A DNA stretch of 64,000 bases from Luteolibacter flavescens (GTDB taxonomy: Bacteria; Verrucomicrobiota; Verrucomicrobiia; Verrucomicrobiales; Akkermansiaceae): the NCBI RefSeq assembly GCF_025950085.1, contig NZ_JAPDDS010000002.1, forward strand, positions 186,001-250,000, in the 5' to 3' direction. The first letter of the stretch is position 1. Each line of letters opens with the position of its first letter. Shown one piece after another: positions 52,019 through 64,000 of this stretch. The notes under the pieces are model-generated. The model saw nothing but the letters and a program-made list of their open reading frames with translations. It did not search any database and was not told where the DNA came from. The translations under genes were made by a program, and so were the position numbers.

Positions 52019-52801
52019 TCATTTCACGAAGACCAGCCGGCCCCACTGCTCGGGCACGTGCATGTTGATCACGCCCTGCGGGCTCCACACCCAGTTGTCC
52101 TCGGGGTGGCTGCCCTCTTGGATCTTCGCGCCGTGCTCGGGGATGCGGACGTACTTGCCGTCCTTCACGGCGTGGACCCACTGCACGCGCGAGAAATTGA
52201 TGCGCCAGGTATCGCCTGCATTCGGCGGCGAGGCGAGCTGGCCGGAGTGCTTCGCGAGGTCCTTCCACGGCAGGAAGATTTCCACGGACCATCCGGTGTC
52301 GTGATCGCTCGGGTCATTGAGCGTGCCGTCGATCTTCACCGCGCTCTTCAGCCCGGGGAGATTCGTGCCGTGCACCGCGGTGCCGCCCTTCGAGTAGGGC
52401 TTGTCCAGGGTCAGCTCCCAGATGGTGGCGAGCGCGTTGATCTCAAATTCGTAGTAGTTCAGCGTGTCGCCATCGGGATCGAGGAAGATCTCGAAGTCAT
52501 TGTCGTGGAAGATGATGGAGTTCTTTTCCGTCAGCGTGCCCCAGACGTGCGGCTCCTCCATCTCCGCGGCCACGTGCAGGCCCTCGGCCGTCCAAAGCAT
52601 CTTCGCGCGGGTGCGGTAGCGCGGCTTCGCGTGGTCCTTTCCCTGGATGTCGATGAAGTCGCTGGTCCACGCGATCTTTTCCCATGCGGGATCGGAGAGA
52701 TCGCCATCCACCTTCGGCGCGGTTTCGGAGAAGCGGCACTCGTAGGTCAGCGGCTCGGCGGTGGCGAGGACGGGGAGGAAAAGAGAAAGCAGGAAGCGCA
52801 T
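52019..52801 (-). CDS. Exported CBM9/DOMON-like carbohydrate-binding protein
   Basis: A 260-residue protein with a signal peptide (MRFLLSLFLPVLATAEP). The single domain starts PKVDGDLSDPAWEKIAWTSDF and contains AKMLWTAEGLHVAAEMEEPHVWG, DNDFEIFLDPDGDTLNYYEFEINALATIWEL and GWSVEIFLPWKDL (read in parts), the layout of family 9 carbohydrate-binding-like modules. It probably binds glycans or haem in the envelope. The start at the signal peptide lies 41 codons inside the open frame. It is the last host-type gene before the Mu-like element. Confidence 0.82.
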   Translation of the reverse strand: MRFLLSLFLPVLATAEPLTYECRFSETAPKVDGDLSDPAWEKIAWTSDFIDIQGKDHAKPRYRTRAKMLWTAEGLHVAAEMEEPHVWGTLTEKNSIIFHDNDFEIFLDPDGDTLNYYEFEINALATIWELTLDKPYSKGGTAVHGTNLPGLKSAVKIDGTLNDPSDHDTGWSVEIFLPWKDLAKHSGQLASPPNAGDTWRINFSRVQWVHAVKDGKYVRIPEHGAKIQEGSHPEDNWVWSPQGVINMHVPEQWGRLVFVK

Positions 52802-52924
52802 GATGACAGGTGAGGGAAGACGACCCGCGGCGGCAATCCCAATGTGGCCTGTGCATGGGTAGCGGAAGGACTGCGTCCTTCCGGCTGGGCGGGGGTGGAA
52901 GGGGGATCGGCGCTTTGATTCCAT

Positions 52925-53060
52925 AGGCTGACCTCGGCAAGCAGTCAGCGTAGATAAGAAAAGGCCGAACCAGGGGGAAGGAGGCCGAAGAAGCCCGAAA
53001 CAGAAGGGTTTCCGGGGCGGTGGGCAGGCCGAAAAGGGGGCCGGGCCGAAATGAGAAAAC
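52925..53060. other. Candidate element terminus with repeated GGCCGAA motifs
   Basis: Within 100 bases GGCCGAA occurs at 52963, 52983, 53027 and 53044, and GCCCGAA at 52993, mostly followed by A. There is no gene here. Spaced repeats of a short motif at the end of the element are expected for MuA-type transposase binding sites. TG at 52929-52930 could be the terminal dinucleotide, but without the other end it cannot be confirmed. Confidence 0.5.
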
Positions 53061-53112
53061 CGAGGCAGTGCGCCCCGGTTTCCTCCGATAGATTAGAAAA
53101 CTGGCCGGGGGA

Positions 53113-53925
53113 TCAGAAGGGATCGTCGGCGGAGGGCTTGGCGACGCGGGAAGCTGTCCCGGCGGGGGTGTCGAGGGCGCGCTCTGTTGCCTTCTTGCGC
53201 GCCTTGCGGCGGGCGGTGCCTGGGGCGCGCTTCCCGGCGTCGGCGCGGCCCTCGCGAGTGGCGATGCGGTTGCGGAGCGTGGAGAGGAGCTGGGTGAGCT
53301 GATCGACAGTGCAGCGGTCGGCCAGGCCTGCCTCCAGATCGCGACCGAGCGTGAGCTGAGGGCGGCGCGTTTTCTGGCGCGCCAGGAAGATCAGGTAGCC
53401 CTCGCGGATCGGGCCGTCCTTGTGAGCGCGGATCGCCTCGCGGGCGGCGCGCAGCCGCTGGTAGGTGCCGGTGTCGGCAGTCTCCGCGGCCAGATCCACG
53501 GCGGAAATCTCGCCGAGGCGGATGTGGGTGGCCAGCTCGGTGGCGATGAGGTGGGCGAGCTGGCGGCGGCGCTCGTGGGTGTCGTCTTGGTCGCGGGTCG
53601 CCGGACCGGTCTTCATGAGGCGAGCCAGCGCCTTGTCGTCGTGCCCGGCGAGGGTCGCGAAATGGGCCATCACCGGGTTGAAGTCGTCGTGATCCAGGGC
53701 GGTGAGGCCGGGCTTGCCGACCGCGGCCATTACCTGCTCCCGCCGCCAGTCGTCGAAGCTGGTCGTGTGGTCGAGGTTCGCCAGCTCGATCTGCATGTCG
53801 AAGGCGGCCTTGGCCTCCAGCACGAGCGGCTGGATCTCCGCACGGGAAATGTTCCCGCGGGGCTTCCGCGGAGCCTTTGCAGCGGTCTTGCGGGCGGCCC
53901 GCGGGGCAGTCGGTTTGGCGCTCAT
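53113..53925 (-). CDS. Element protein with basic Ala/Lys-rich ends
   Basis: A 270-residue protein. The N-terminus (PRAARKTAAKAPRKPRG) and C-terminus (GKRAPGTARRKARKKAT) are histone-H1-like basic tails, likely DNA-binding. The middle has TSFDDWRREQVMAAVGKPGL and DDFNPVMAHFATLAG, helical and perhaps related to Mu GemA-type early-late regulators, though I am not sure. It is the last gene of the element and overlaps the previous gene by 4 bases. Confidence 0.55.
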   Translation of the reverse strand: MSAKPTAPRAARKTAAKAPRKPRGNISRAEIQPLVLEAKAAFDMQIELANLDHTTSFDDWRREQVMAAVGKPGLTALDHDDFNPVMAHFATLAGHDDKALARLMKTGPATRDQDDTHERRRQLAHLIATELATHIRLGEISAVDLAAETADTGTYQRLRAAREAIRAHKDGPIREGYLIFLARQKTRRPQLTLGRDLEAGLADRCTVDQLTQLLSTLRNRIATREGRADAGKRAPGTARRKARKKATERALDTPAGTASRVAKPSADDPF

Positions 53926-54197
53926 GGGGTGGTATTGTCGGGTGAAAGGCTGGCCTCGATGTCGGCCACGATGCCGAGGGCGAGGGCTTGGAAATGCCGC
54001 ATGTGGGCGATGGCCGAGTCCGTTTCGGCGAGGATCTCGCGCATCATGGCGAGGCCGTGCCGCGGATTGCCGCGCAGGTAGGTGGCGGCGAAGACCTTGC
54101 GGAGCTTCATGTGGTAGCCGGAGGCCTCACACGCGGCGACCAGAGCGGCATTTGCTGCCGTCTGGAACGCGATGACTTCGGCCTCGGTGGCGATCAT
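53922..54197 (-). CDS. Small element protein, helical
   Basis: A 91-residue helical protein (VIAFQTAANAALVAACEASGYH, HGLAMMREILAETDSAIAHM). It overlaps the 270-residue gene by ATGA and has its own upstream gap of 65 bases shared with the divergent zinc-ribbon gene. Function unknown. Confidence 0.6.
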   Translation of the reverse strand: MIATEAEVIAFQTAANAALVAACEASGYHMKLRKVFAATYLRGNPRHGLAMMREILAETDSAIAHMRHFQALALGIVADIEASLSPDNTTP

Positions 54198-54204
54198 AGC
54201 GCTG

Positions 54205-54220
54205 ACAACCAGATTGTTGT
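54205..54220. promoter_or_regulatory. ACAAC-N6-GTTGT inverted repeat between divergent genes
   Basis: A perfect 5-bp inverted repeat with six bases between, located eight bases before one gene and 43 before the divergent one. It could be an operator for the last two element genes or for the zinc-ribbon gene. Confidence 0.4.
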
Positions 54221-54262
54221 TTCAGGGTTGAAGGAGCGGCGCGGCTTTCGTCCCATCGGGAG

Positions 54263-54487
54263 ATGGGAACTATCGATGACGTCACTTACGATTTTTCATG
54301 CCCCAAATGTGGGGAATCCGAGCGGGCCAAATTGTTTGATCGCGGCTCTGGATGGGGCGGATCGTCGTGGTCGAGCGGTGTGGTGCTGAAGAACTTCGAT
54401 GTATCCTGGAGCGGAGGCGACCGGGAAATGCCGAGTCCGACAAAGGCCACGTGTAAGGCCTGCGGAGGAAATGCAAAGTGGGTGTAA
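54263..54487 (+). CDS. Zinc-ribbon protein on the opposite strand
   Basis: A 74-residue protein with FSCPKCGES near the N-terminus and ATCKACGGNAKW at the C-terminus, two Cys-x2-Cys pairs that would form one zinc ribbon, with a Gly/Ser/Trp-rich loop between. It is the only gene in the element read rightwards, has a GGGAG-like site before the ATG, and has a more AT-rich base composition than its neighbours, like a separately acquired cargo gene. Function unknown. Confidence 0.6.
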   Translation: MGTIDDVTYDFSCPKCGESERAKLFDRGSGWGGSSWSSGVVLKNFDVSWSGGDREMPSPTKATCKACGGNAKWV

Positions 54488-54498
54488 TCCCGCCCGAA

Positions 54499-54690
54499 TT
54501 AGGGGAAGTCGTCTGGATCAACGTCTCCCATGAATTGATAGGGAACAGTCGGAAAGCCATAACCTTCCACTTCCTCTTGATGAACATCGCAGGCGTCAAA
54601 CCAGCCCGCCCCTCCATCGTAGCGACAGACAGCCGGAACAAGGTCGCCTTCGCCTTTGCATAGGTCACAGAAACAAGCGGAGATCCTCAT
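54499..54690 (-). CDS. Cys-rich small protein
   Basis: A 63-residue protein with CFCDLCKGEGD, VCRYDGG and WFDACDVH, a likely zinc-binding cluster (Cys-x-x-Cys ... Cys/His). Like the neighbouring zinc-ribbon gene it is less GC-rich than the rest. The frame is convergent with that gene. Function unknown. Confidence 0.5.
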   Translation of the reverse strand: MRISACFCDLCKGEGDLVPAVCRYDGGAGWFDACDVHQEEVEGYGFPTVPYQFMGDVDPDDFP

Positions 54691-54714
54691 TGGAGTGGGT
54701 GATCCGGTGGAGAT

Positions 54715-55119
54715 TTAGAGCAGCCGGAGCTGGGGCTTGGATTCGATGTCGCTGCCGTGGGTGCGGTTGTGGGACTCGGCGAAAGCGCGACCGCAGTGGG
54801 GGCAGGTTTCCTTCGGGGCGACGTGCGATTTCTCACAGATGCACATGATGCTGCCGCGCTTGGGCTTCGGGAGAGCCAGGGGCTTTGGCTTCTTTTCCTT
54901 CGCGGCATCGCGGAAGGGCTGATTCATCTTGAGGCTGACCTCGCGCTCACGCTGGTGCTGCCTCTCGTCCGGCGTGTAGTGCCAGCCGTCCGAATCACCT
55001 TCGGTGACGTAGCGGACCGGCGTGAGCTTCGCGAGCAGGGTGATGGCCGACGTGGCGGCGGCGAGGCTGTCCACGGCATAGTCCTGATAGCCGAAGGTGA
55101 TGATGTGCTTCTTGCTCAT
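54715..55119 (-). CDS. Element protein with C-terminal zinc ribbon
   Basis: A 134-residue protein. N-terminal half (HIITFGYQDYAVDSLAAATSAITLLAKL) is globular; the C-terminal part has CICEKSHVAPKETCPHCGRAF, a Cys-x-Cys and Cys-x2-Cys zinc site. GWHYTPDERQHQRER lies between. No family recognised; it follows the 104-residue gene by 12 bases. Confidence 0.65.
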   Translation of the reverse strand: MSKKHIITFGYQDYAVDSLAAATSAITLLAKLTPVRYVTEGDSDGWHYTPDERQHQREREVSLKMNQPFRDAAKEKKPKPLALPKPKRGSIMCICEKSHVAPKETCPHCGRAFAESHNRTHGSDIESKPQLRLL

Positions 55120-55131
55120 GGGTTCAGGCGG

Positions 55132-55446
55132 TCAGGAGTGCGTTTTCCACGCGGGGGGGGGGGTAAGCTCGGGGAACATATCGAGCTGGAGGCCGCTGGC
55201 CTTCACGTCGGCGGGACGGGCATTGCGGGCATTGAGCAGCCGGGCGATCTCGCGGAGGCGCTCGATGTCGCGCTCTGAAATAGCGGTCTGACGGCAGCGG
55301 CCATCGTAGCGCAGCGACCAGTGCTTGATGGTCGGTTGCTTGCCCTTCTTCCGCTCCTTCGCCGTGAGCTTGTGGAAGACGGGAATGACGGTCCATCGGG
55401 GGCATTCGCCGAGGGGCAGCTCCTTGTCGGGTTGGGATTGGGCCAT
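55132..55446 (-). CDS. Element protein ending in a poly-C tract
   Basis: A 104-residue protein, MAQSQPDKELPLGECPRW at the start, and a helix with AISERDIERLREIARLLNARNAR later. The 3' end crosses a run of 11 C (11 G on the plus strand, 55153-55163) that encodes the prolines of LTPPPAW. The gene is preceded by the ...CAACC-ATG start context. Function unknown. Confidence 0.65.
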   Translation of the reverse strand: MAQSQPDKELPLGECPRWTVIPVFHKLTAKERKKGKQPTIKHWSLRYDGRCRQTAISERDIERLREIARLLNARNARPADVKASGLQLDMFPELTPPPAWKTHS

Positions 55447-55546
55447 GGTTGGTTGGCGGTTCGGGGTGGATTGGCCGGGCGGGCGGGGTGCAAAGGGGCT
55501 CCTGTCCCTCACTCAAGGGAAGGCCTTCCGCCCGCCCGGCAAAGGA

Positions 55547-56038
55547 TCAGGTCGCTGAGGCGGTTGGCTCGGCCTCCTTCCAGGCGACGACGATGCGGGA
55601 CTTGGGAATGCCACCCTTCTTGATATCGAGGCAGGCCTTGATGAAGGCGGCATACTCATCGGGGGCGAATGCATTGCGGGCATCGCGGCGGAACTCGCGT
55701 CCGTCCGATTGGACGCGCTCAAACTTGTTCACGGGCTTGAAGAACAGGCCCAGCTTCTCGCCTGCAATCGTGACGAGCTTGGAGTGCGTGTCGGAGTTCG
55801 GCTTGAAGGATGCGATAAGGAGATCGCTTTCAAAGATGACAGGCAGCGAACGGCCAGCACCCCGGGCAACCCACTTTTTCCCTTCGCGGTCCTGCTCCTT
55901 CAGCGGCTCGTGCTGGCTGGACTCGGCGACGGCTTGGATGCGCGCATTGATCAGCTTCAGCTCCTCGGTGAGCCGCGCGATCTCTTCCTGAATCCAGGTG
56001 CCGCGGGCGATGTCTTCTGCGATGGATGGTGTGTTCAT
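55547..56038 (-). CDS. Element protein, N-terminal coiled coil
   Basis: A 163-residue protein. The N-terminus is a coiled coil (WIQEEIARLTEELKLINARI), followed by a mixed domain with LFFKPVNKFERVQSDGREFR and a final AFIKACLDIKKGGIPKSRIVV. It might be a Gam-like or recombination-related early protein by position, but no diagnostic motif is seen. Confidence 0.6.
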   Translation of the reverse strand: MNTPSIAEDIARGTWIQEEIARLTEELKLINARIQAVAESSQHEPLKEQDREGKKWVARGAGRSLPVIFESDLLIASFKPNSDTHSKLVTIAGEKLGLFFKPVNKFERVQSDGREFRRDARNAFAPDEYAAFIKACLDIKKGGIPKSRIVVAWKEAEPTASAT

Positions 56039-56052
56039 GATCGGGGGAAATG

Positions 56053-56325
56053 TCAGGAGTCGATGCGCCCGCGGAGGATGGCGATGCGGGTTTCAATCTC
56101 GCGAATGGTAGCGGGCAGGATCTTCGCGCGGCGGGCGGTGAAGCGGGCGAACTTGCGCTCTTCGGCTGCGAGTGCCTTCTGTGCGATGCCTAGTGCCTTG
56201 TGGCGCTGTCGCTGCTCGGCGACGAAGTCGGCATTCACCTTCTTCAGGGACTGCTCGTGCTGCTTGATCTCGGCCCTCCAGATCTTCTTCTGGGCGGCCT
56301 CGTGGCTTTTGGATTTGGCGGGCAT
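56053..56325 (-). CDS. Coiled-coil element protein
   Basis: A 90-residue highly charged helical protein (KKIWRAEIKQHEQSLKKVNADF ... KFARFTARRAKILPATIREIE in pieces). Predicted as one long coiled coil. Function unknown. It follows its neighbour by 20 bases and precedes the next by 14. Confidence 0.6.
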   Translation of the reverse strand: MPAKSKSHEAAQKKIWRAEIKQHEQSLKKVNADFVAEQRQRHKALGIAQKALAAEERKFARFTARRAKILPATIREIETRIAILRGRIDS

Positions 56326-56345
56326 CGTGATCGTAAGGTGGCGGT

Positions 56346-56555
56346 TCAGAGTTCGGTGTCGGTGACGTCGCCAGAGGCGGCGGCGATGGCGGGCTCGGCC
56401 CGTGGCGGGCGCTCGATCTCGCAGGAGCATTGGTGGCGGCCTATGATGACCGGGCAGTGGAAGACGTGGCGGTCCTCGCGGACTTCGCCGGTGGCCCGCA
56501 TGGGCGAGCGGTGGAGCGGGCAACGCGGTGCGGTCTTGTGATCGTCGGGGCTCAT
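56346..56555 (-). CDS. Small Cys/His protein
   Basis: A 69-residue protein with RCPLHRSPM, HVFHCPVIIGRHQCSC, suggestive of a zinc-binding knuckle (C-x2-H ... H-x-x-x-C ... C-x-C). The start is the ATG that overlaps the Lar-like stop by ATGA; the frame is open further upstream. Function unknown. Confidence 0.55.
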   Translation of the reverse strand: MSPDDHKTAPRCPLHRSPMRATGEVREDRHVFHCPVIIGRHQCSCEIERPPRAEPAIAAASGDVTDTEL

Positions 56556-56767
56556 GCCGGGGATTCGTCGGGGAAGGCCTTGCCGGCTTGCCATGCGGCG
56601 AGGGCGGCGGCGGGGGTTTCGTAGAGGTGGCCGGTGTGGGGCCAGAGGTGGCAGTCAAAGCCCTTGCTGCACTCGGCGGCCCACTTGTCCCTGGTGGTGA
56701 TGGTGAGGCCCTTCCGGGTGCGCGGCTGGCTCTTGCATTCCGGGCAGGGGCGGTAGGGCGCGGGCAT
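56552..56767 (-). CDS. Lar-like restriction-alleviation protein
   Basis: A 71-residue protein with YRPCPECKSQPRTRKG, AECSKGFDCHLWPHTGHLY and AALAAWQAGKAF. The layout CPxC, a second Cys pair and a terminal A-x-x-x-W matches Lar-family proteins, which many phages use to weaken type I restriction. The usual WN reads WQ. Assignment is tentative. It overlaps the next gene by four bases. Confidence 0.5.
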   Translation of the reverse strand: MPAPYRPCPECKSQPRTRKGLTITTRDKWAAECSKGFDCHLWPHTGHLYETPAAALAAWQAGKAFPDESPA

Positions 56768-56769
56768 CG

Positions 56770-57081
56770 TCAGGAGTCGGCGATCTCGGTGATTTCGAGA
56801 CGGCGCAGGCAGTTGAAGTTATCGACCCGCACGACTTCGCCGCGGCGGTAGTGCATCGTCTGTCCGTTGGACATGACCGTGGCGCGTCCAAATGGAGGGA
56901 CCGGCATGCCTGGAAGCTGGAGGGGCGTGACGATCTCCGTGACCATCACGATGATCTGAGTCGGCTTGCCGCCATTGTTGATCAACTGAGCCAAATACGG
57001 GGTCGGGGTCTGCGCATCCACGCGGCGGTGAATGCTCGCCGTGATGGCGGCTTTTTTGTGGGCTTTGCGAGTGGTGGCCAT
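56770..57081 (-). CDS. Element protein, unknown function
   Basis: A 103-residue protein starting MATTRKAHKKAAITASIHRR. The rest is beta-rich (QIIVMVTEIVTPLQLPGMPV, GEVVRVDNFNCLRRLEITEI). Start context CACAACCATG is shared with four other element genes. No family recognised. Confidence 0.6.
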   Translation of the reverse strand: MATTRKAHKKAAITASIHRRVDAQTPTPYLAQLINNGGKPTQIIVMVTEIVTPLQLPGMPVPPFGRATVMSNGQTMHYRRGEVVRVDNFNCLRRLEITEIADS

Positions 57082-57110
57082 GGTTGTGATGGGTCCGGGT
57101 CTGGAGGTTG

Positions 57111-57329
57111 TTAGAGCAGGTGGTCGGGGCGGAACTTGCGGAGCTGCTGCATGGCCTCGGCGCGTTCACGGTCGGTGAGGCCGCCGGTGGGGCTCAGGGT
57201 GTGGGGATTGAAGCTGCGCGTGGGGACGCGCGGCTTGCGGGGCTTGCGGGCGGCAGCTTTCTGGATCTCGCGCAGCGTGCGGGGGCTGCGATCTCCAGCG
57301 GAGGACTGGTGGTCGGTGCGGAGTTTCAT
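57111..57329 (-). CDS. Small basic element protein
   Basis: A 72-residue protein, basic in the first half (REIQKAAARKPRKPRVPTR) and with GLTDRERAEAMQQLRKFRPDHLL at the end. The ATG after the CACCCGGCACCTCC leader is chosen. Possibly DNA-binding; no family recognised. It lies 67 bases after the MuB-like gene. Confidence 0.55.
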   Translation of the reverse strand: MKLRTDHQSSAGDRSPRTLREIQKAAARKPRKPRVPTRSFNPHTLSPTGGLTDRERAEAMQQLRKFRPDHLL

Positions 57330-57396
57330 GGAGGTGCCGGGTGGGCGGTGAGTGGTGGTGAGGAGGCGTCCGGCTGGAAGCCGGAGCCACGGTGGG

Positions 57397-58485
57397 TCAG
57401 TCGCCGTTTTCGAGGCGGACGAGGGCGGCGTGGGATTGGATGACGTGATCCCAGGCGAGAGGGGCGGAATGCCTGCTGGCGACCTTCGACGCGCCTTCAA
57501 GGATCGAGATCCAGCGGCCCAATGAATCCTCGCGGAGGACAAGCGTCTGGAGGTCGAGCGCTTCGCCAGTGGCAGGCTCCAGGCCGAAGTGCTTGGCGAA
57601 GGCGGCGAGGCTCTTCTTCGTCGGAGAGTCCGGCAGGCGGGCCGTGATGAGCGTGCGCTGGAGCGTCTGCTTGAAGATGCCCGAGAAGAAATCGTTCTTC
57701 ATGGCGGCATCGAAGACCGGCGTGACCCCGTAGATGATGGCGAGGCCGGTCTCGTCGTGCAGCTCGCGGAGCCACTCGACGGTGTGATACACGGACGGGG
57801 CGACGCCATTGCGCTCCTTGCGGGTGGGCCGCGGCAGGCACTGGTGGAACTCATCGACGATGAGGAGCTGGCGCTCGTCGAAGACCGCCATGATCTTGTT
57901 GGCAATGGACTGGTCGTTGTGGTTCAGGCCCACGCCGACCCTCGGTGCCAGGGCGCGGAGGAATGCTCCCTTCGATCCGCCCGCAGGCATGCGGACGTAG
58001 GTGGTCGCGCCGTGGTTGTTGCGGACGGTGTATTCGACGAAGGCGGTAGTCTTGCCGACGTGGGTATTCCCGATGACGAGGCCCATCTTCCCGAAGTTCC
58101 GGGTGGAGTCGCAGACCTGGAAGATGCGGCGCGTGATGTCGGTCTCGACGAAACCGATGCGTGTGATCTTGGAGCGCTCGGTCTCGATCTTCCGCAGGTC
58201 GAAAATGGCGGCCAGCATGTTATCAAGCTGGTCGGAGGTGCGGCGGCCCGTGAGGAACTGATAGACCGAGTCCCTGCTGTAGGTGCCCTTGCCGTCCGGC
58301 TTCTTCAAGCGCTTGCCCAGTTCTTCCAGGTCGAGGTCCTGGGTGCGGGCGTAGTCATCGAGCCAGAAGACGAGCGCGCTCTGCTCCTCGCCCAGGGACT
58401 TCGTCCACTGCGCGATGTCGGTGCGGTCGATCTTGTATTTGCGGTGCTTGTGGCCGCGGCGGGGTGAGGTGTCGTCGGTGTCCAT
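57397..58485 (-). CDS. MuB-like AAA+ ATPase, transposition target regulator
   Basis: A 362-residue protein. The N-terminal 110 residues include a helix-turn-helix (LDLEELGKRLKKPDGKGTYSRDSVYQFLTGRRTS in parts), as in MuB/ExeA-type ATPases. The ATPase core has Walker A GNTHVGKT (about residues 139-146), Walker B LLIVDEFHQ (207-215) and a sensor region IIYGVTPVFDAAM. MuB binds target DNA and activates MuA. Its place downstream of the transposase, with a 61-residue gene between, is the Mu order. ATG of MDTDDTSPRR chosen. Confidence 0.85.
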   Translation of the reverse strand: MDTDDTSPRRGHKHRKYKIDRTDIAQWTKSLGEEQSALVFWLDDYARTQDLDLEELGKRLKKPDGKGTYSRDSVYQFLTGRRTSDQLDNMLAAIFDLRKIETERSKITRIGFVETDITRRIFQVCDSTRNFGKMGLVIGNTHVGKTTAFVEYTVRNNHGATTYVRMPAGGSKGAFLRALAPRVGVGLNHNDQSIANKIMAVFDERQLLIVDEFHQCLPRPTRKERNGVAPSVYHTVEWLRELHDETGLAIIYGVTPVFDAAMKNDFFSGIFKQTLQRTLITARLPDSPTKKSLAAFAKHFGLEPATGEALDLQTLVLREDSLGRWISILEGASKVASRHSAPLAWDHVIQSHAALVRLENGD

Positions 58486-58514
58486 GGTGATGGGAAAATT
58501 GCCGGGTGCCGGAT

Positions 58515-58700
58515 TCAGCGAGTGCGGTAGATGACGAGGGCGCGGCGGCCCGAGACGGAGAGGTGGCCGATCTCCGAGCCGGGCTCGCGGGTGTAGTCGG
58601 CGGCGAGCTGCGCGCGGTCGAAGGACGGGCCGTGCTTGCGGGTGAGGCGCACGTGGAGCCATCCGGCGGAGGCGGGGAACTTGTCTCTGAGGGTGTCCAT
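58515..58700 (-). CDS. Small protein between MuA and MuB
   Basis: A 61-residue protein, MDTLRDKFPASAGWLHVRLT at the start and RRALVIYRTR at the end, basic, no domain. Start context CACAACCATG. Its place between transposase and ATPase suggests a role in transposition or only a compact layout. Confidence 0.5.
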   Translation of the reverse strand: MDTLRDKFPASAGWLHVRLTRKHGPSFDRAQLAADYTREPGSEIGHLSVSGRRALVIYRTR

Positions 58701-58720
58701 GGTTGTGGTGGGCTTGAGGA

Positions 58721-60859
58721 TCAGGCGAAGGGGTTGAAGTCGTCGGCGGGCTTCGGCTCGGCGGCGGGTGCCGGGGGCTCTCCGGTGCGGGAGGAACTGG
58801 CCCAGGCATCGAGCGCGCCGGAGGTGTCCACGCTGGATGCGGTCTGCTGGACGCGGTTGCGGCGCTTCGTGTCGCTGGCTTTCTCGGCTGGCGTCTGACG
58901 GACGATCCCGGCGGCGGCATCGCGCAGGCCTTCGTTGTGCGCCTTCACCTCGCGGCGGCGCTCGGCCACGCCCTGGAAGGCGGCGCGCACCGGGGCATCG
59001 GCGTCGGCGGTCTGGAGGGCGCGGGCCGCAAGCAGGTCCTGCGCGAGGTCGGCATTGCTCGCGACATCGTCGGGGATGCGGGCGGCGATCCCGATGGGCG
59101 CGCCGTGCTGGTCGAGCACGATGAGACTGTCCGGCGCGAAGGGATTGAGGTGGCAGAGCACCTGGTCGCCCGGCGAGAGGCTGATGCGGTGGCCGCGTTC
59201 ATTCCGGCAGGCGGTGAAGTAGGTGAGGGCCTTCGTGCCCTTGATGAGCGGATCGCGGACAACAAGCGTGCGCTCGCGGGTCACCTTCAGCTCATGCGCC
59301 CACTCCAGCGGGAGGAGGTTGTGGAAGTCGTGGATGTCGAGCGTCCTGATCGCGGGGTCCATCTCGGACTGCCGCACCGCCTCTGCACGGCTCATGCGGC
59401 GGGTGCGCACGAGGCCGGGATTCTCCGCGCGCTGGAGATCGAAGGTGGCGGCGACGTGCGGGGCGGACTCGGCGAGGCGGGCCAGCTCGGCGCGGGGACG
59501 CCAGAGGCCGGTGGGGTCCTGCTCCCAGCGCCACTCGCGCATGACGAAGCCGAGCGCTTCCCAATCCTTCAGCGCGTGATCCGGGTCGGCATTGATACCC
59601 GCGTAGATCATGCGGTAGGCGCTGTAGTATTCCGCGAACGAGAAGAGGTTGCTCTGGACGGCCTCGGCGATGTGGGTCGGGAACTTGGAGGCGAGCTTGA
59701 GCCACTTCGTCTCCTCGCGCTCCAGGCCGTAGTTTTCGGCGGGCATGAGGTCGGCATTGCGACCGGTGGCACCGGGGATGAGCAGTCCGTGGGTGCGGAC
59801 CGCGCGGAACATCGATTCGATGGGGGCCTTGAAGCGGAAGTTACCCGCGCTCTTTGGCACGAACATCATCTCGCTCCACGTCGCCTGGTTGAACTTGCCG
59901 GAGCGGTCGATGGTGACCTTCCCGCCGGTGAAGGCGGAGAGCGCGGACTCGAAAGAGGCGTGCCCCGCGTGAGTCTTGAGGCGGCCGGATTCGCTGCTCC
60001 ACGAGTTCGCGGTGCCGTGCTCGAAAACGAGGCGCGTGCCCTTCGCGTCGCCGCGGTAGCCGACCGACGACAGCAGGCCGAGGACGAACCAGACGAACTC
60101 GCGCTGGGTCAGGCTGCGGTGGCTCTCGGAATTCTCGTCCCACCAGCGCAGGCGCATGTGGAAGTCGAGGAATGCGCCGGTGAGGTAATCCAGGGCATTG
60201 AAGCCGACCGGGCGCATGGGCTTCTCCCAGCCGGGCTGCTGGATCATGTGGTCATAGACCTGGTCGTCGAAGAAGATCCGCTCCAGGTAGGAGACGCCGA
60301 TGCGGCTGTCCGGGATGGAGGGCAGGAGATCGCTGGCGGCCTTCCGTCCCTGATGCGCGAGCGCGCGCTGATAGGCGTCCGGTCCGTAGCGGCGGATCGT
60401 CTCCTGCGAGAGTCCGACCGGGTAGCCCTTCGCCCCCATGGCAGGCGGCTCGACAAGACCAGGGATGGCATACTTCGGATTGCCGGTTTTGCCCCACAGC
60501 CGGGCGCGGTCGCGGATGAGCTTGTAGATCTCGACGCCGCTGTCCTCGCGCTGGAGGCGGAGGTATTCCTCGGTGATCCACCGCTGCGTGATCTCCGGCA
60601 GGCCGCGCTCCTTGCCCCGCTTGCGTCGGCCATCGACGAGGGCTTCCGCGCCGTGGGCGTTGAAGTCCCCCACCCATTTGTTGACCGCCTGCGTCGATAC
60701 GCGGAGATCGCGGGCGGCGGCCTTCACCACATCGCCCTTCGTGCCATAGCGCGCGGCGTTCACGGCCTGCACGGCTTCCAGCTTCTGGAAGAGGCCGGTC
60801 TTCTGCTCCGGCGTGAGGGTGCGGAGCAGCGACAAGGGAGCTAGGGAGAGGGCGGACAT
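58721..60859 (-). CDS. MuA-family transposase
   Basis: A 712-residue transposase. The N-terminal HTH is at about residues 40-75 (AARDLRVSTQAVNKWVGDFN). The RNase H-like catalytic core shows Asp198/Asp199 in YLERIFFDDQVYDH, an acidic residue Glu280 in LVFEHGTANSW, and Glu348 in FKAPIESMFRAVRTHG. A beta-barrel and a C-terminal helical region follow, ending in a Pro/Ala-rich tail. The second catalytic position is Glu rather than Asp of the classical DDE triad, if this alignment is right. It cuts and joins the element ends; the partner ATPase is downstream. Confidence 0.88.
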   Translation of the reverse strand: MSALSLAPLSLLRTLTPEQKTGLFQKLEAVQAVNAARYGTKGDVVKAAARDLRVSTQAVNKWVGDFNAHGAEALVDGRRKRGKERGLPEITQRWITEEYLRLQREDSGVEIYKLIRDRARLWGKTGNPKYAIPGLVEPPAMGAKGYPVGLSQETIRRYGPDAYQRALAHQGRKAASDLLPSIPDSRIGVSYLERIFFDDQVYDHMIQQPGWEKPMRPVGFNALDYLTGAFLDFHMRLRWWDENSESHRSLTQREFVWFVLGLLSSVGYRGDAKGTRLVFEHGTANSWSSESGRLKTHAGHASFESALSAFTGGKVTIDRSGKFNQATWSEMMFVPKSAGNFRFKAPIESMFRAVRTHGLLIPGATGRNADLMPAENYGLEREETKWLKLASKFPTHIAEAVQSNLFSFAEYYSAYRMIYAGINADPDHALKDWEALGFVMREWRWEQDPTGLWRPRAELARLAESAPHVAATFDLQRAENPGLVRTRRMSRAEAVRQSEMDPAIRTLDIHDFHNLLPLEWAHELKVTRERTLVVRDPLIKGTKALTYFTACRNERGHRISLSPGDQVLCHLNPFAPDSLIVLDQHGAPIGIAARIPDDVASNADLAQDLLAARALQTADADAPVRAAFQGVAERRREVKAHNEGLRDAAAGIVRQTPAEKASDTKRRNRVQQTASSVDTSGALDAWASSSRTGEPPAPAAEPKPADDFNPFA

Positions 60860-60892
60860 GGTAAATGCGGAGAGGTGCCGGGTGAGCGGTGA

Positions 60893-61222
60893 TCAGTGTT
60901 CTGCCGGGGTCGCTGGAAAGACGGCGATGTCGAGTTGGTGGATGAGGTAGGCAAAGACCTCGCGGGCGCTGTGGTTCATGGCGGCCATGTCGGCGACGAC
61001 CTCGGGAGGGAAGGACTCGCGGGCGCGGTCACTCACGCGGGTGAGCTCCACCACGCGCTGGCAGTGCATGAGCGCGAGATAAGCGTGGGTGACCGGCGTG
61101 TCCGCTTTGCAGCTCTGCGCGTCCGAAATTGCTTGGGCCTTGGCGGCGGCACAAATCATCGGTGCCTGATCCATGAGATCGCGCAGGCGATGGCCCGGGA
61201 GAATGGGCGGGATAGGGTCCAT
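60893..61222 (-). CDS. Element protein, helical, unknown function
   Basis: A 109-residue helical protein (PMICAAAKAQAISDAQSCKA, PEVVADMAAMNHSAREVFAYLIHQL in parts). It lies 33 bases upstream of the transposase start and three bases downstream of the next gene. No family recognised. Confidence 0.6.
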   Translation of the reverse strand: MDPIPPILPGHRLRDLMDQAPMICAAAKAQAISDAQSCKADTPVTHAYLALMHCQRVVELTRVSDRARESFPPEVVADMAAMNHSAREVFAYLIHQLDIAVFPATPAEH

Positions 61223-61225
61223 GGA

Positions 61226-61495
61226 TCAGAGGTGGAGCTGGCGGTTGAGCGAGAAGAAGGTGGCGGAGAAGCCGGTGTCGGTGCGGAGGAGTTCCTTGGC
61301 TCGCTCCAGGCACATGCGGTAGTCGACGAGCGAGAGGCCCAGCTCGCGGGCGAAGAAATCCTTGTCCCCTTCCAGTTTGGCATGGGCGAGGAGGGCGGAG
61401 AGTTCGTCGGGATGCTGCTTGTCGGCGACGGCCTCGCGGATGCGTTGCACGAGGCTGGCATTGCGGCGGACGGGTTGCGGGGTGGAGGTGTTCAT
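61226..61495 (-). CDS. Element protein, unknown function
   Basis: An 89-residue protein with VQRIREAVADKQHPDELSALL and YRMCLERAKELLRTDTGF, predicted helical. The start context has two CCACAACC copies before ATG. No family recognised. Confidence 0.6.
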   Translation of the reverse strand: MNTSTPQPVRRNASLVQRIREAVADKQHPDELSALLAHAKLEGDKDFFARELGLSLVDYRMCLERAKELLRTDTGFSATFFSLNRQLHL

Positions 61496-61532
61496 GGTTG
61501 TGGTTGTGGTTTGCTACGGGGGATCTAGTAGG

Positions 61533-62540
61533 TCAGGCGGCGGAGGTGCCCTTGGCGGGCTTGGCGTGGGCAGCGAGGGCGGCTTCCACCTCGGTGAGGA
61601 GGGCGGCGGCCTCATCACGCAGAAAGGTGAGCGACAGCTTGCCGGGCTCGTCCGCGATGGGCGGGAGCAGGTGCAGGAGCTTCACGCCCTGCTCGCTGCG
61701 GGCCTTGAGGATGGCGCTGGCCGGGCCGTCCCAATGGTGGAAGGCGAGTTCAAGCTGGTCCTCTTGCTGCTGGTCGCCGCCCTTGGCCGCCGGTGTCTTG
61801 GCGGGCATAACGGGCTTCGGCGTGATGCCAAACTCGGTCATGAGGCTGCCCTGCGTCTCGCCTGTGCAGAGGCTGGCAATGACATCGCGGACGTGCTCGC
61901 GCTGCTCGGGTGGCAAGGCGAGCGGGTTGCCCTGGGCGAAGATGGTGAGGGCGTTCTTCTCCTCGGGCTTCTTAGCCACACGCTTGAGCTTTGCCTTCGC
62001 GGAGTCGAAGAGTTCGATGAGGCGGTCCGCGGTGCGGCGCGTGTAGCCGGTGTAGTGGTGGACGAGATCGTCCCAGGTGCGAGGATCGGACAATTTGTCC
62101 GATCCGGCCTGATTGTTCCCCCGCTTCACGCCGTGGTCCTTCTTGAGCTGGGCGAGTTGCCAGCCGAGGAAGGCTTGGATCTCCAGGTAGGTGCGACCGG
62201 TTTCGCGGAGGCGACCGGCGGTTTCGCGCACGGCGAGCCAGCGCGGATCTTCGATCTCCGGGACCGGGCTGTCGGTGGTGACCTCGACCGGGGCGAGCGC
62301 GGCAGTCGGCAGCTTGGCGATGGCCGACTTGATCGCGTTGATCAGCGACTTGCGGTGGCTGCCGCGGATCTCATGGGCAAGGCAGCCTTCGAGGATCTGG
62401 CGCTTCGTTGTTTCGTCGATCTTTGGCTCACGCTCTTCCGGGCGCTCAAGCAGTGAACGGATGGAGGCCTTGCCGTCGTCAATGGACGTGCAGCAGATCC
62501 AACGGAGGTAATCATCAAGGGTGGGATTCTCTACGGACAT
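61533..62540 (-). CDS. Element protein with HTH-like central domain
   Basis: A 335-residue protein. Residues about 105-190 (TYLEIQAFLGWQLAQLKKDHG, DDLVHHYTGYTRRTADRLIELF, KAKLKR) resemble a small HTH or DUF3102-like domain seen in phage and conjugative-element regulators. The N-terminus and a C-terminal helical part are unassigned. Function unknown; a replication or regulatory role is possible. It is only two bases from the next gene. Confidence 0.6.
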   Translation of the reverse strand: MSVENPTLDDYLRWICCTSIDDGKASIRSLLERPEEREPKIDETTKRQILEGCLAHEIRGSHRKSLINAIKSAIAKLPTAALAPVEVTTDSPVPEIEDPRWLAVRETAGRLRETGRTYLEIQAFLGWQLAQLKKDHGVKRGNNQAGSDKLSDPRTWDDLVHHYTGYTRRTADRLIELFDSAKAKLKRVAKKPEEKNALTIFAQGNPLALPPEQREHVRDVIASLCTGETQGSLMTEFGITPKPVMPAKTPAAKGGDQQQEDQLELAFHHWDGPASAILKARSEQGVKLLHLLPPIADEPGKLSLTFLRDEAAALLTEVEAALAAHAKPAKGTSAA

Positions 62541-62542
62541 GG

Positions 62543-62746
62543 TCAGCGGGAGATGGGTTTGGAGAGCGGGGTGTCGTTGCGCTGGTCCTCAATGGCGCGG
62601 GCGCGCTGGAGGAATTCGATTTGCCGCCATGCGCCCTTCTCGGCGGCGCGTAGCTGGGCCGGGACGAAGAGACCGCGGGCGACGTAGCCGAGGACGGCTC
62701 CGGCGATGACGCCGAGACCGGCAATGAGCGGGGTGATTTCGGGCAT
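62543..62746 (-). CDS. Small membrane protein
   Basis: A 67-residue protein with one N-terminal membrane helix (TPLIAGLGVIAGAVLGYVA) and a charged, soluble C-terminus containing EFLQRARAIEDQRND. It is compactly packed between two element genes. Function unknown. Confidence 0.6.
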   Translation of the reverse strand: MPEITPLIAGLGVIAGAVLGYVARGLFVPAQLRAAEKGAWRQIEFLQRARAIEDQRNDTPLSKPISR

Positions 62747-62769
62747 GGCGGGAAAGAGGTGATCGGTGA

Positions 62770-63039
62770 TCAGTGGGCGGCTGCGATCTTGGCGGCGCGG
62801 ATCGCTTGCTTGGCGGCGCGCTGCTCGGGCGTTGCGTTGCCGGGAAGAAGGTCCGCGGCGGCGAGGACGCGATGGGCTTGCTGTTCGCGGAACTCGGTGA
62901 CGATGGCGGCCACGGTCTTGCCGGGCTGGTTCTCGACGAGGCCACAGATCCAGCCGACGAAGCGGTTGGTCGCTGCCTGGTCGAGGGTGGTGAGGTAGCC
63001 GGAGAGTTCTTCCCGGGCTGCGAGGGAGAGCCTTTTCAT
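62770..63039 (-). CDS. Element protein, unknown function
   Basis: An 89-residue helical protein (LAAREELSGYLTTLDQAATN, then GKTVAAIVTEFREQQAHRVL). Start context CACAACCATG. It overlaps the sigma-factor-like gene by four bases, so is translationally coupled to it. Confidence 0.6.
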   Translation of the reverse strand: MKRLSLAAREELSGYLTTLDQAATNRFVGWICGLVENQPGKTVAAIVTEFREQQAHRVLAAADLLPGNATPEQRAAKQAIRAAKIAAAH

Positions 63040-63332
63040 GGTTGTGATTCGGGATCGTGATCGGGAGTGAGTGCGGCCTTGGCGCGGGCGAGAAAGCGGG
63101 CTTCCAGGCGGCGGACGCGCTTGCGGCTGATGCCGTAGATGGCGGCGATGGTTTCCTGGCTGATCTGGCTGCCGGGGGGTGGCAGGAGGCCGGTCATCTG
63201 GAGGGCGGCGAGGCGGATGGGGCCGGGGGCTAACAGGGCCAGCTCGATGATGGCGTCCGCGAGGAGCTCGGCCTCGGCGTCGGCCAGGGCGTCATCGTCG
63301 GCGGTCGGGGAGGTGGCTGTTAGGTCGGGCAT
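63036..63332 (-). CDS. Sigma-70 region 4-like HTH protein
   Basis: A 98-residue protein. The C-terminal third, QISQETIAAIYGISRKRVRRLEARFLARAKAAL (in parts), has the spacing of region 4 of sigma-70 (compare GVTRERVRQIEAKALRKLR). The N-terminus is acidic and helical. It may be a small regulator that acts on late or early promoters of the element. The leader carries the CACCGCCCACCCGGCAC motif. Confidence 0.6.
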   Translation of the reverse strand: MPDLTATSPTADDDALADAEAELLADAIIELALLAPGPIRLAALQMTGLLPPPGSQISQETIAAIYGISRKRVRRLEARFLARAKAALTPDHDPESQP

Positions 63333-63360
63333 GAGGGAAGGAGTGCCGGGTGGGCGGTGA

Positions 63361-63534
63361 TCAGCGGTGGAAGTCGCCGCGGTCCTGAGCGTCCTGGTGA
63401 CGGCGGAGATGAGGGGGCAGGGCGTCGCGCTTGATGCGGACCGGGACGTGCTTGGGCTTCTCGTCGGCGCGGACCGCGAGGGCCGTGGCGATGGCGCAGA
63501 TGACGAGGCCGAGGAGGTAGAGGGTGGTGAACAT
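63361..63534 (-). CDS. Small membrane protein (57 residues)
   Basis: A short gene starting MFTTLYLLGLVICAIATALA, one membrane helix, then a basic polar tail with KPKHVPVRIKRDALPPHLRR. Start context CACAACCATG. Spacing fits the compact array (28 bases to the next gene). Function unknown. Confidence 0.55.
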   Translation of the reverse strand: MFTTLYLLGLVICAIATALAVRADEKPKHVPVRIKRDALPPHLRRHQDAQDRGDFHR

Positions 63535-63579
63535 GGTTGTGTCGGTTGGTGGTTGTCGGTTCAGGCCGGTGGGTGCCGG

Positions 63580-63798
63580 TCAGTGATTCAGTTGCGAGAG
63601 GAGGTCGGCTTCCGCTTCGGAGGCGGCGGAGAAGTGCTTGGCGGCGGCAGCAGCGGCCACGGACAGATCCGGGCAGTCGTCGTGCAGTGCGGTGGCAACG
63701 AGGGTGCAGACATCAGCGTGCTCCTTGGGTGGAGAGTCGGACGCGGCGTTCAGCGCGAGCCGGGCGAGCCGGGAGAGGGCCATCTGTTTTGGGGTCAT
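63580..63798 (-). CDS. Small element protein, unknown function
   Basis: A 72-residue Ala-rich protein (MALSRLARLALNAASDSPPK ... LSVAAAAAAKHFSAASEAEA). It overlaps the HTH gene by 86 bases in another frame; a later start would shorten it. Coding is likely from position but not certain. Confidence 0.45.
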   Translation of the reverse strand: MTPKQMALSRLARLALNAASDSPPKEHADVCTLVATALHDDCPDLSVAAAAAAKHFSAASEAEADLLSQLNH

Positions 63799-63976
63799 GG
63801 TTCAGGGCTTCGGCTATTGCTTGCGTGACGTGGGGGTAGCGATTGGAGCCGTTGATCGCGGCTGACGTGGTGGTCCGGGGGTAGTGGATGCGAGAGGCCA
63901 ACTCAGTGATGGTCCAACCGAGGTCGATGAGGCGCTTCTTTGCCCAAGCGGGAAACTGCTTGTGGGTCTTAGCCAT
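63713..63976 (-). CDS. HTH regulator (Ner/Cro-like)
   Basis: An 87-residue protein with WAKKRLIDLGWTITELASRI and TTTSAAINGSNRYPHVTQAIAEAL, a small winged or Cro-type HTH like Ner of phage Mu. It is the first gene of the leftward transcript. A perfect inverted repeat lies 9 bases upstream of its start codon, an evident operator. A C-terminal Arg/Ala tail is atypical. It probably controls the element's early genes. Confidence 0.75.
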   Translation of the reverse strand: MAKTHKQFPAWAKKRLIDLGWTITELASRIHYPRTTTSAAINGSNRYPHVTQAIAEALNHDPKTDGPLPARPARAERRVRLSTQGAR

Positions 63977-63985
63977 TTTGTTAGC

Positions 63986-64000
63986 GTCAACCGCGTTGAC
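63986..64000. promoter_or_regulatory. Palindromic operator before the HTH regulator
   Basis: GTCAAC-CGC-GTTGAC, a perfect 6-bp inverted repeat with a 3-base centre, ends exactly at the window edge. Placement directly before the regulator gene suggests autoregulation. It may extend beyond the window. Confidence 0.65.

Follow-up and report, generated by a model that had tools for sequence, protein, structure and literature searches.

The 64,000-nucleotide stretch analysed here (the window) covers positions 186001-250000 of the 541-kb Luteolibacter flavescens contig NZ_JAPDDS010000002.1, and coordinates above 64000 continue its numbering along the contig. It holds the left part of a 35,564-bp prophage that runs from 52936 to contig-equivalent 88499, and which we believe, with high confidence, to be a complete transposable prophage of the Mu type, from a Verrucomicrobiota bacterium, built with the divergent arms of Pseudomonas phage B3 and acting by the route proposed below. 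An earlier note on the window had seen early genes without late genes ahead of them and had implied an anomaly relative to phage Mu. The observation holds, but the element extends past the window edge, and the puzzle dissolves: early genes without late genes ahead are ordinary because the layout is that of B3, and it is standard for B3-type transposable phages (PMC8705779). The divergent layout by itself is ordinary. What remains of interest is that the element appears to pair a MuA-fold transposase of unusual active site with an unusually short scar; judged from sequence, a family spread across Verrucomicrobiota would keep the MuA fold while apparently replacing the second catalytic Asp with Glu, and would use a shorter target stagger that leaves a 4-bp duplication. 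If true, this tests the strictness of the D-D-E active site and how stagger length is set, and insertion tools could be derived from it for a phylum in which genetic tools are scarce.

The early arm consists of about 23 closely packed minus-strand open reading frames (ORFs), selected from the ORF list, from 63976 down to 53113. The earlier note had described this array and placed a MuA transposase and a MuB ATPase within it, and both assignments hold. The features of this arm are as follows.

52936-64000, no strand: left part of the prophage, inside the window; ends set by repeats and duplication, the rest beyond the window edge
53113-53925, minus strand: GemA-like last early gene, weak match (PF06252 E 0.078, under the cut-off); 4 of the 7 phages compared have a relative, located at this same end
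57397-58431, minus strand: MuB-like AAA ATPase, transposition target protein, beside the transposase (PF13401 1.9e-10; TniB 5.4e-5; PHROG_296 "DNA transposition protein" 1.7e-20)
58721-60859, minus strand: MuA-type transposase, 712 aa (PHROG_310 1e-12; fold match to MuA core)
61533-62540, minus strand: conserved early gene adjoining the transposase gene; relatives in 6 of 7 compared phages, no Pfam family over the cut-off
63036-63332, minus strand: small helix-turn-helix (HTH) protein, sigma-70 region 4 type (Sigma70_r4 24.1 bits, cut-off 24.1; PHROG_351 4.6e-4)
63713-63976, minus strand: first early gene, Ner-like HTH regulator (PHROG_1468 transcriptional repressor 3.3e-7; named Ner by analogy)

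The note was also right that no morphogenesis genes are in view: the scanned proteins of 53-64 kb matched no structural family, save that the HTH protein at 63036-63332 also matches a terminase-small-subunit PHROG at E 0.09. Its labels for the small proteins fared unevenly. The sigma-4-like label stands, exactly at the cut-off, and the zinc-binding label has sub-threshold zinc-finger matches only (54715-55119), while the Lar-like and membrane labels find no support in the Pfam scan, in which 9 of the 10 small early proteins gave no match at E 0.5.

Beyond 64 kb, lysis, terminase, portal, protease and capsid genes lie in a rightward arm that diverges from the early array. From 64056 most genes are read rightward, with one ORF, 65897-66466, on the opposite strand.

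64056-64706, rightward: S24/HTH repressor (Peptidase_S24 3.5e-15)
67673-68353, rightward: amidase endolysin (2.6e-43)
69313-69861, rightward: Mu gp27-like protein (8.7e-8)
Within 69306-71387, rightward: terminase (4.4e-29)
71515-73563, rightward: Mu portal (1.7e-41)
73560-74573, rightward: Mu I-type protease (1.1e-16)
75116-76042, rightward: major head protein (1.4e-25)
76152-76625, rightward: head-tail adaptor (1.6e-5)
76876-77859, rightward: D12-class methylase (9e-22)

The genes between the D12 methylase and 88290 are assigned to the tail from their position. Of the genes that the earlier note proposed to seek here, portal and capsid genes were found, and the tail genes are assigned by position and by a single weak match (E 0.0079). 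With portal, terminase, protease and head protein in 35,564 bp, the element agrees with the head and packaging genes looked for in a genome of about 36-39 kb; four other resolved elements span 33.4-41.2 kb. The note had left two explanations, late genes lying to the right and read divergently, or a non-phage Mu-type transposon. The right arm bears out the first. The window alone, with only transposition and unknown genes in sight and an ATPase that also matches TniB, would suit a transposon (Tn7/Tn5053-like) with cargo genes; it was rejected after the right arm was read, and we now give it hardly any weight, since amidase, gp27-like, terminase, portal, protease and head genes lie between both ends, in the order of phage B3.

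To set the ends of the prophage, we used a closed genome (G122) that carries a near relative in two related copies, followed by motif scans. The features around the ends are given below.

52932-52935, no strand: left copy of the 4-bp target duplication CCTC (right copy at contig-equivalent 88500-88503)
52936-53112, no strand: left end; its terminus is GG and it holds two T(T/A)AGAAAA repeats, one at 52955 and one at 53093 (motif scan of the element)
88571-89446: host ORF right of the element (read by eye)
89478-90575: alanine-racemase-like host ORF (read by eye)

The T(T/A)AGAAAA motif occurs three times in the whole element and at its ends only, on the plus strand at 52955 and 53093 and inverted on the minus strand at 88480. 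The sequence GGTAA opens the right ends of the prophage, of virome contigs G059 and G060 and of both G122 copies, and GG opens the left ends of the prophage, G059 and both G122 copies; at all of these ends the terminus lies 19 nt from the first TTAGA/TAAGA. The left boundary moves from the 52925 of the earlier note to 52936, 11 bp further right. The G122 copies lie at different sites (1407205-1441502 and 3834724-3869084), share 90.8% identity along 6.9 kb of the right arm and 86-95% in the six left-arm pieces that exceed 300 bp, lose their similarity at most 3 bases from the termini given by the 19-nt rule, and are flanked by the 4-bp repeats GCCG and CCCA. An empty site was also recovered. 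The left flanking gene (52019-52924) was matched in 11 of the 18 genomes of the host genus searched, the source genome included, and in 6 of the 10 others (G003, G007, G009, G010, G012, G015) the gene 88571-89446 is its immediate neighbour and no phage separates the two; in the remaining four that gene is not within the flank of about 1.5 kb examined.

The 5-bp target duplication that the earlier note proposed to look for is not found, nor one of 6 bp; 4 bp is supported. Our flank scan took in 19 elements, asked for at least 4 matching bases and gave 9 hits in 8 elements, of which G559 and G283 were judged chance and six elements were accepted (the prophage, both G122 copies, G115, G296 and G074). 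Matching flanks measure 4 bp, not 5 or 6, in all six; they are CAGG in G115 and CCCG in G296, more distant members with TG-type termini, and CCCA in virome contig G074, whose termini lie one base further out. The evidence for 4 bp lies in the ends themselves, in the G122 pair and in a CRISPR-like array. The G115 prophage (G115:C1, about 2494734-2528169) is inserted in this array, recognised from its repeats alone, with nine repeats on one side, eight on the other (17 in all) and one spacer split. When the flanks are joined and one 4-bp copy is removed, the repeat-to-repeat distance at the junction is 65 bp, and the other 15 distances are 64-67. Removing 5 gives 64, which fits too; removing none (69) or 6 (63) does not fit. 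The array is the best independent check of the duplication, and the sequence match fixes its length at 4.

Other candidates for the ends were set aside. A 5-bp duplication with TG...CA termini is absent from 52840-53069 compared with 88430-88570; the longest identical flanks in these stretches, CCAATGTG (8 bp), would require termini that are found in no relative; and a general inverted-repeat scan and a TTTGA motif scan were too noisy. Two exact left-end DNA patterns revealed no new left end in viral contigs, and the first of them had no match in 144 other genomes of the host family.

The transposase has the MuA catalytic core as its best fold match, with a profile match to MuA of 98.4%; its identity to MuA is about 12%. 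Its residues D198/D199, E280 and E348 sit at the MuA triad positions, and the profile alignment pairs E280 with MuA D336 and E348 with E392. The position aligned with D336 is Glu in 88 of 88 family rows and Asp in 31 of 31 MuA-family rows, and we infer that Glu280 serves as a catalytic metal ligand. It is possible, if unlikely, that Glu280 is no ligand, that the alignment with Asp336 misleads and that another residue (Asp198 with Asp199, or Asp224) completes a usual Asp-Asp-Glu triad. The low identity would allow this, as would the two adjacent Asp at the first position, both invariant, an Asp224 that is at least 90% conserved in the family alignment, and residues 322-342 near the third acid, with pLDDT below 50. 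Yet no acid between D203 and E348 other than E280 is fully invariant (family alignment A1), E280 is paired with D336 while E348 takes the place of E392, and in the predicted structure it directly follows the strand 275-279. The second acid of an RNase H fold is expected right after such a strand. A Pfam DDE_2 (PF02914) scan of the genome missed the transposase, which says nothing because its controls were missed as well.

Single-protein scans gave no relatives of this transposase, and the scans were repeated with an alignment. By tblastn neither the transposase, at E 0.01, nor one distant family member had a match in 50,697 phage records, B3 included. Among 15 loci in named genomes, 14 carry labels of Verrucomicrobiota groups and one of Acidobacteriia, and by profile search 40 of the 387 host-phylum genomes sampled contain the family. 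A Mu-portal match was obtained in 27 of 42 virus records searched (15 had none), and in 25 of these 27 the portal and transposase genes lie on opposite strands; late-gene matches are opposite to the transposase in all seven relatives compared gene by gene (G012, G057-G062). In the relative from the same genus (G012:C118, 55102-56163), an ORF beyond the MuB gene looks by eye like a tyrosine recombinase. Among the matches listed from the open-licence literature, we found no description of a D-E-E transposase or of a 4-bp duplication in a Mu-type transposase, and no study of Mu-type phages of Verrucomicrobiota beyond PMC6920513, whose excerpted text mentions a degraded prophage with two Mu-like proteins. 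We lean, with modest confidence, towards the view that a large class of transposable phages, apparently uncultivated, exists in Verrucomicrobiota, and that its MuA-fold transposase has a D-E-E triad and makes target-strand cuts 4 bp apart; the literature searched describes no such variant, in catalysis and in geometry, among Mu-type transposases.

The arrangement between the arms suggests how the element may work. The Ner-like gene (63713-63976) and the S24 repressor gene (64056-64706) are read away from each other out of a short stretch, an arrangement also seen in B3-like phages. In a lysogen the repressor would keep the leftward early promoter down; on induction, the leftward operon would yield the MuA-like transposase and the MuB-like ATPase along with the Ner-like regulator. 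This transposase could then bind the T(T/A)AGAAAA repeats at both ends and join these ends to target DNA that it cuts with a 4-bp stagger, so that the genome would be replicated by transposition, and the rightward operon, by analogy, would then give lysis and virion proteins. In the B3-like phage Fc02, RNA-seq is reported to show a reverse-strand early operon (ner, transposases A and B, gemA, mor) that turns on once repression lifts (PMC9936078). Following the repressor gene is one for a DUF4177 protein (6.3e-12; contig-equivalent 64725-65120), which might be expressed in the lysogen.

Whether the prophage still does all this bears on a further alternative, that it is complete in outline and has lost transposition or particle formation. 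A genome search, which answers the earlier note's proposal to look for the same block at other sites, found a single copy; this and the weakly recognised tail genes speak for decay. Against it, the named genes read open with no internal stops, both ends and the flanking repeat are intact, and G122 holds its two copies of a related phage at different sites. Decay seems to us improbable, and the complete prophage described above may well be active at present.

Several further points weigh against our interpretation. The tail genes are weakly assigned, the sole tail-pointing family match among those scanned being 83061-85106 at E 0.0079; the family scans made found no Mor/C-type activator; and no sigma-70 promoter consensus was found around the stretch between the two arms. 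The divergent layout is not universal in the transposase family, because G063 and G064 carry the portal on the transposase strand, as in Mu. The prophage termini are GG...CC, not TG...CA. Eleven of the 19 elements gave no flank hit, and the raw total of the flank scan does not exceed its control, since the control with shifted positions produced 10 hits, spread over 3 of the 19 elements (8 in the second G122 copy, 1 in G296, 1 in G339), against 9 real ones. Moreover, G115, G296 and G074 were chosen by a scan for at least 4 bases, and chance hits would mostly be 4 too. Virome contig G059 has clear termini and flanks that do not match; these flanks need not stem from one insertion in a virion population, but the contig still counts as a case against. 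Finally, particles, induction and transposition of the element are predictions from its sequence.

Comparison with known systems supports a place for the prophage among the transposable phages. With phage Mu (AF083977) it shares the MuA transposase fold, a MuB-type ATPase, a Mu-type portal, the I protease and a gp27-like protein. It differs in that Mu early and late genes are codirectional (first 12 kb examined) and in that MuA has Asp336 where the prophage's transposase family has Glu; the Mu target duplication is 5 bp (PMC8705779).

Phage B3 (Beetrevirus, AF232233), of which the two-arm layout is called typical (PMC8705779), has a matching leftward early arm (a transposition ATPase, a transposase, and gemA close to the left end), a divergent repressor, and a rightward arm with lysis, gp27/gp28/portal, protease, capsid, Dam methylase and tape measure genes. 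The prophage matches this layout, but not the B3 sequence, with only transposase and portal tested against the phage collection. The reported B3 target duplication is 6 bp (PMC8705779), against 4 bp in the prophage. Profile comparison of the transposases gave only 9.6% over 37 residues, and no Mor gene was found in the prophage. BcepMu, another divergent phage, is not in the phage collection.

The Leptospira transposable prophages, as the excerpted text of PMC8705779 reports them, likewise have B3-type two arms, gemA near one end when present, a MuA-like transposase and, like the prophage here, no Mor/C genes; in contrast, their transposases are reported as D-D-E and their flanking repeats as 5 or 6 bp. 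The unusual termini of the prophage have precedents, both in the non-canonical TA-TA ends of a subset of these Leptospira prophages (PMC8705779) and in phage KS10, likewise without TG...CA termini (PMC2628397).

Akkermansia phage DTMo-2021a (CP084202) opens with a gene that looks, by eye only, like a tyrosine integrase. Its ORFs match 7 of 29 prophage test proteins: the endolysin, portal, protease, major head protein, the 77850-79430 protein, the tape-measure candidate and the 85106-87007 protein. An HMM search of this phage found no transposase of the prophage's family or of the MuA family. The structural module is thus partly common to the prophage and to a phage without this transposase, and therefore modules have probably been exchanged.

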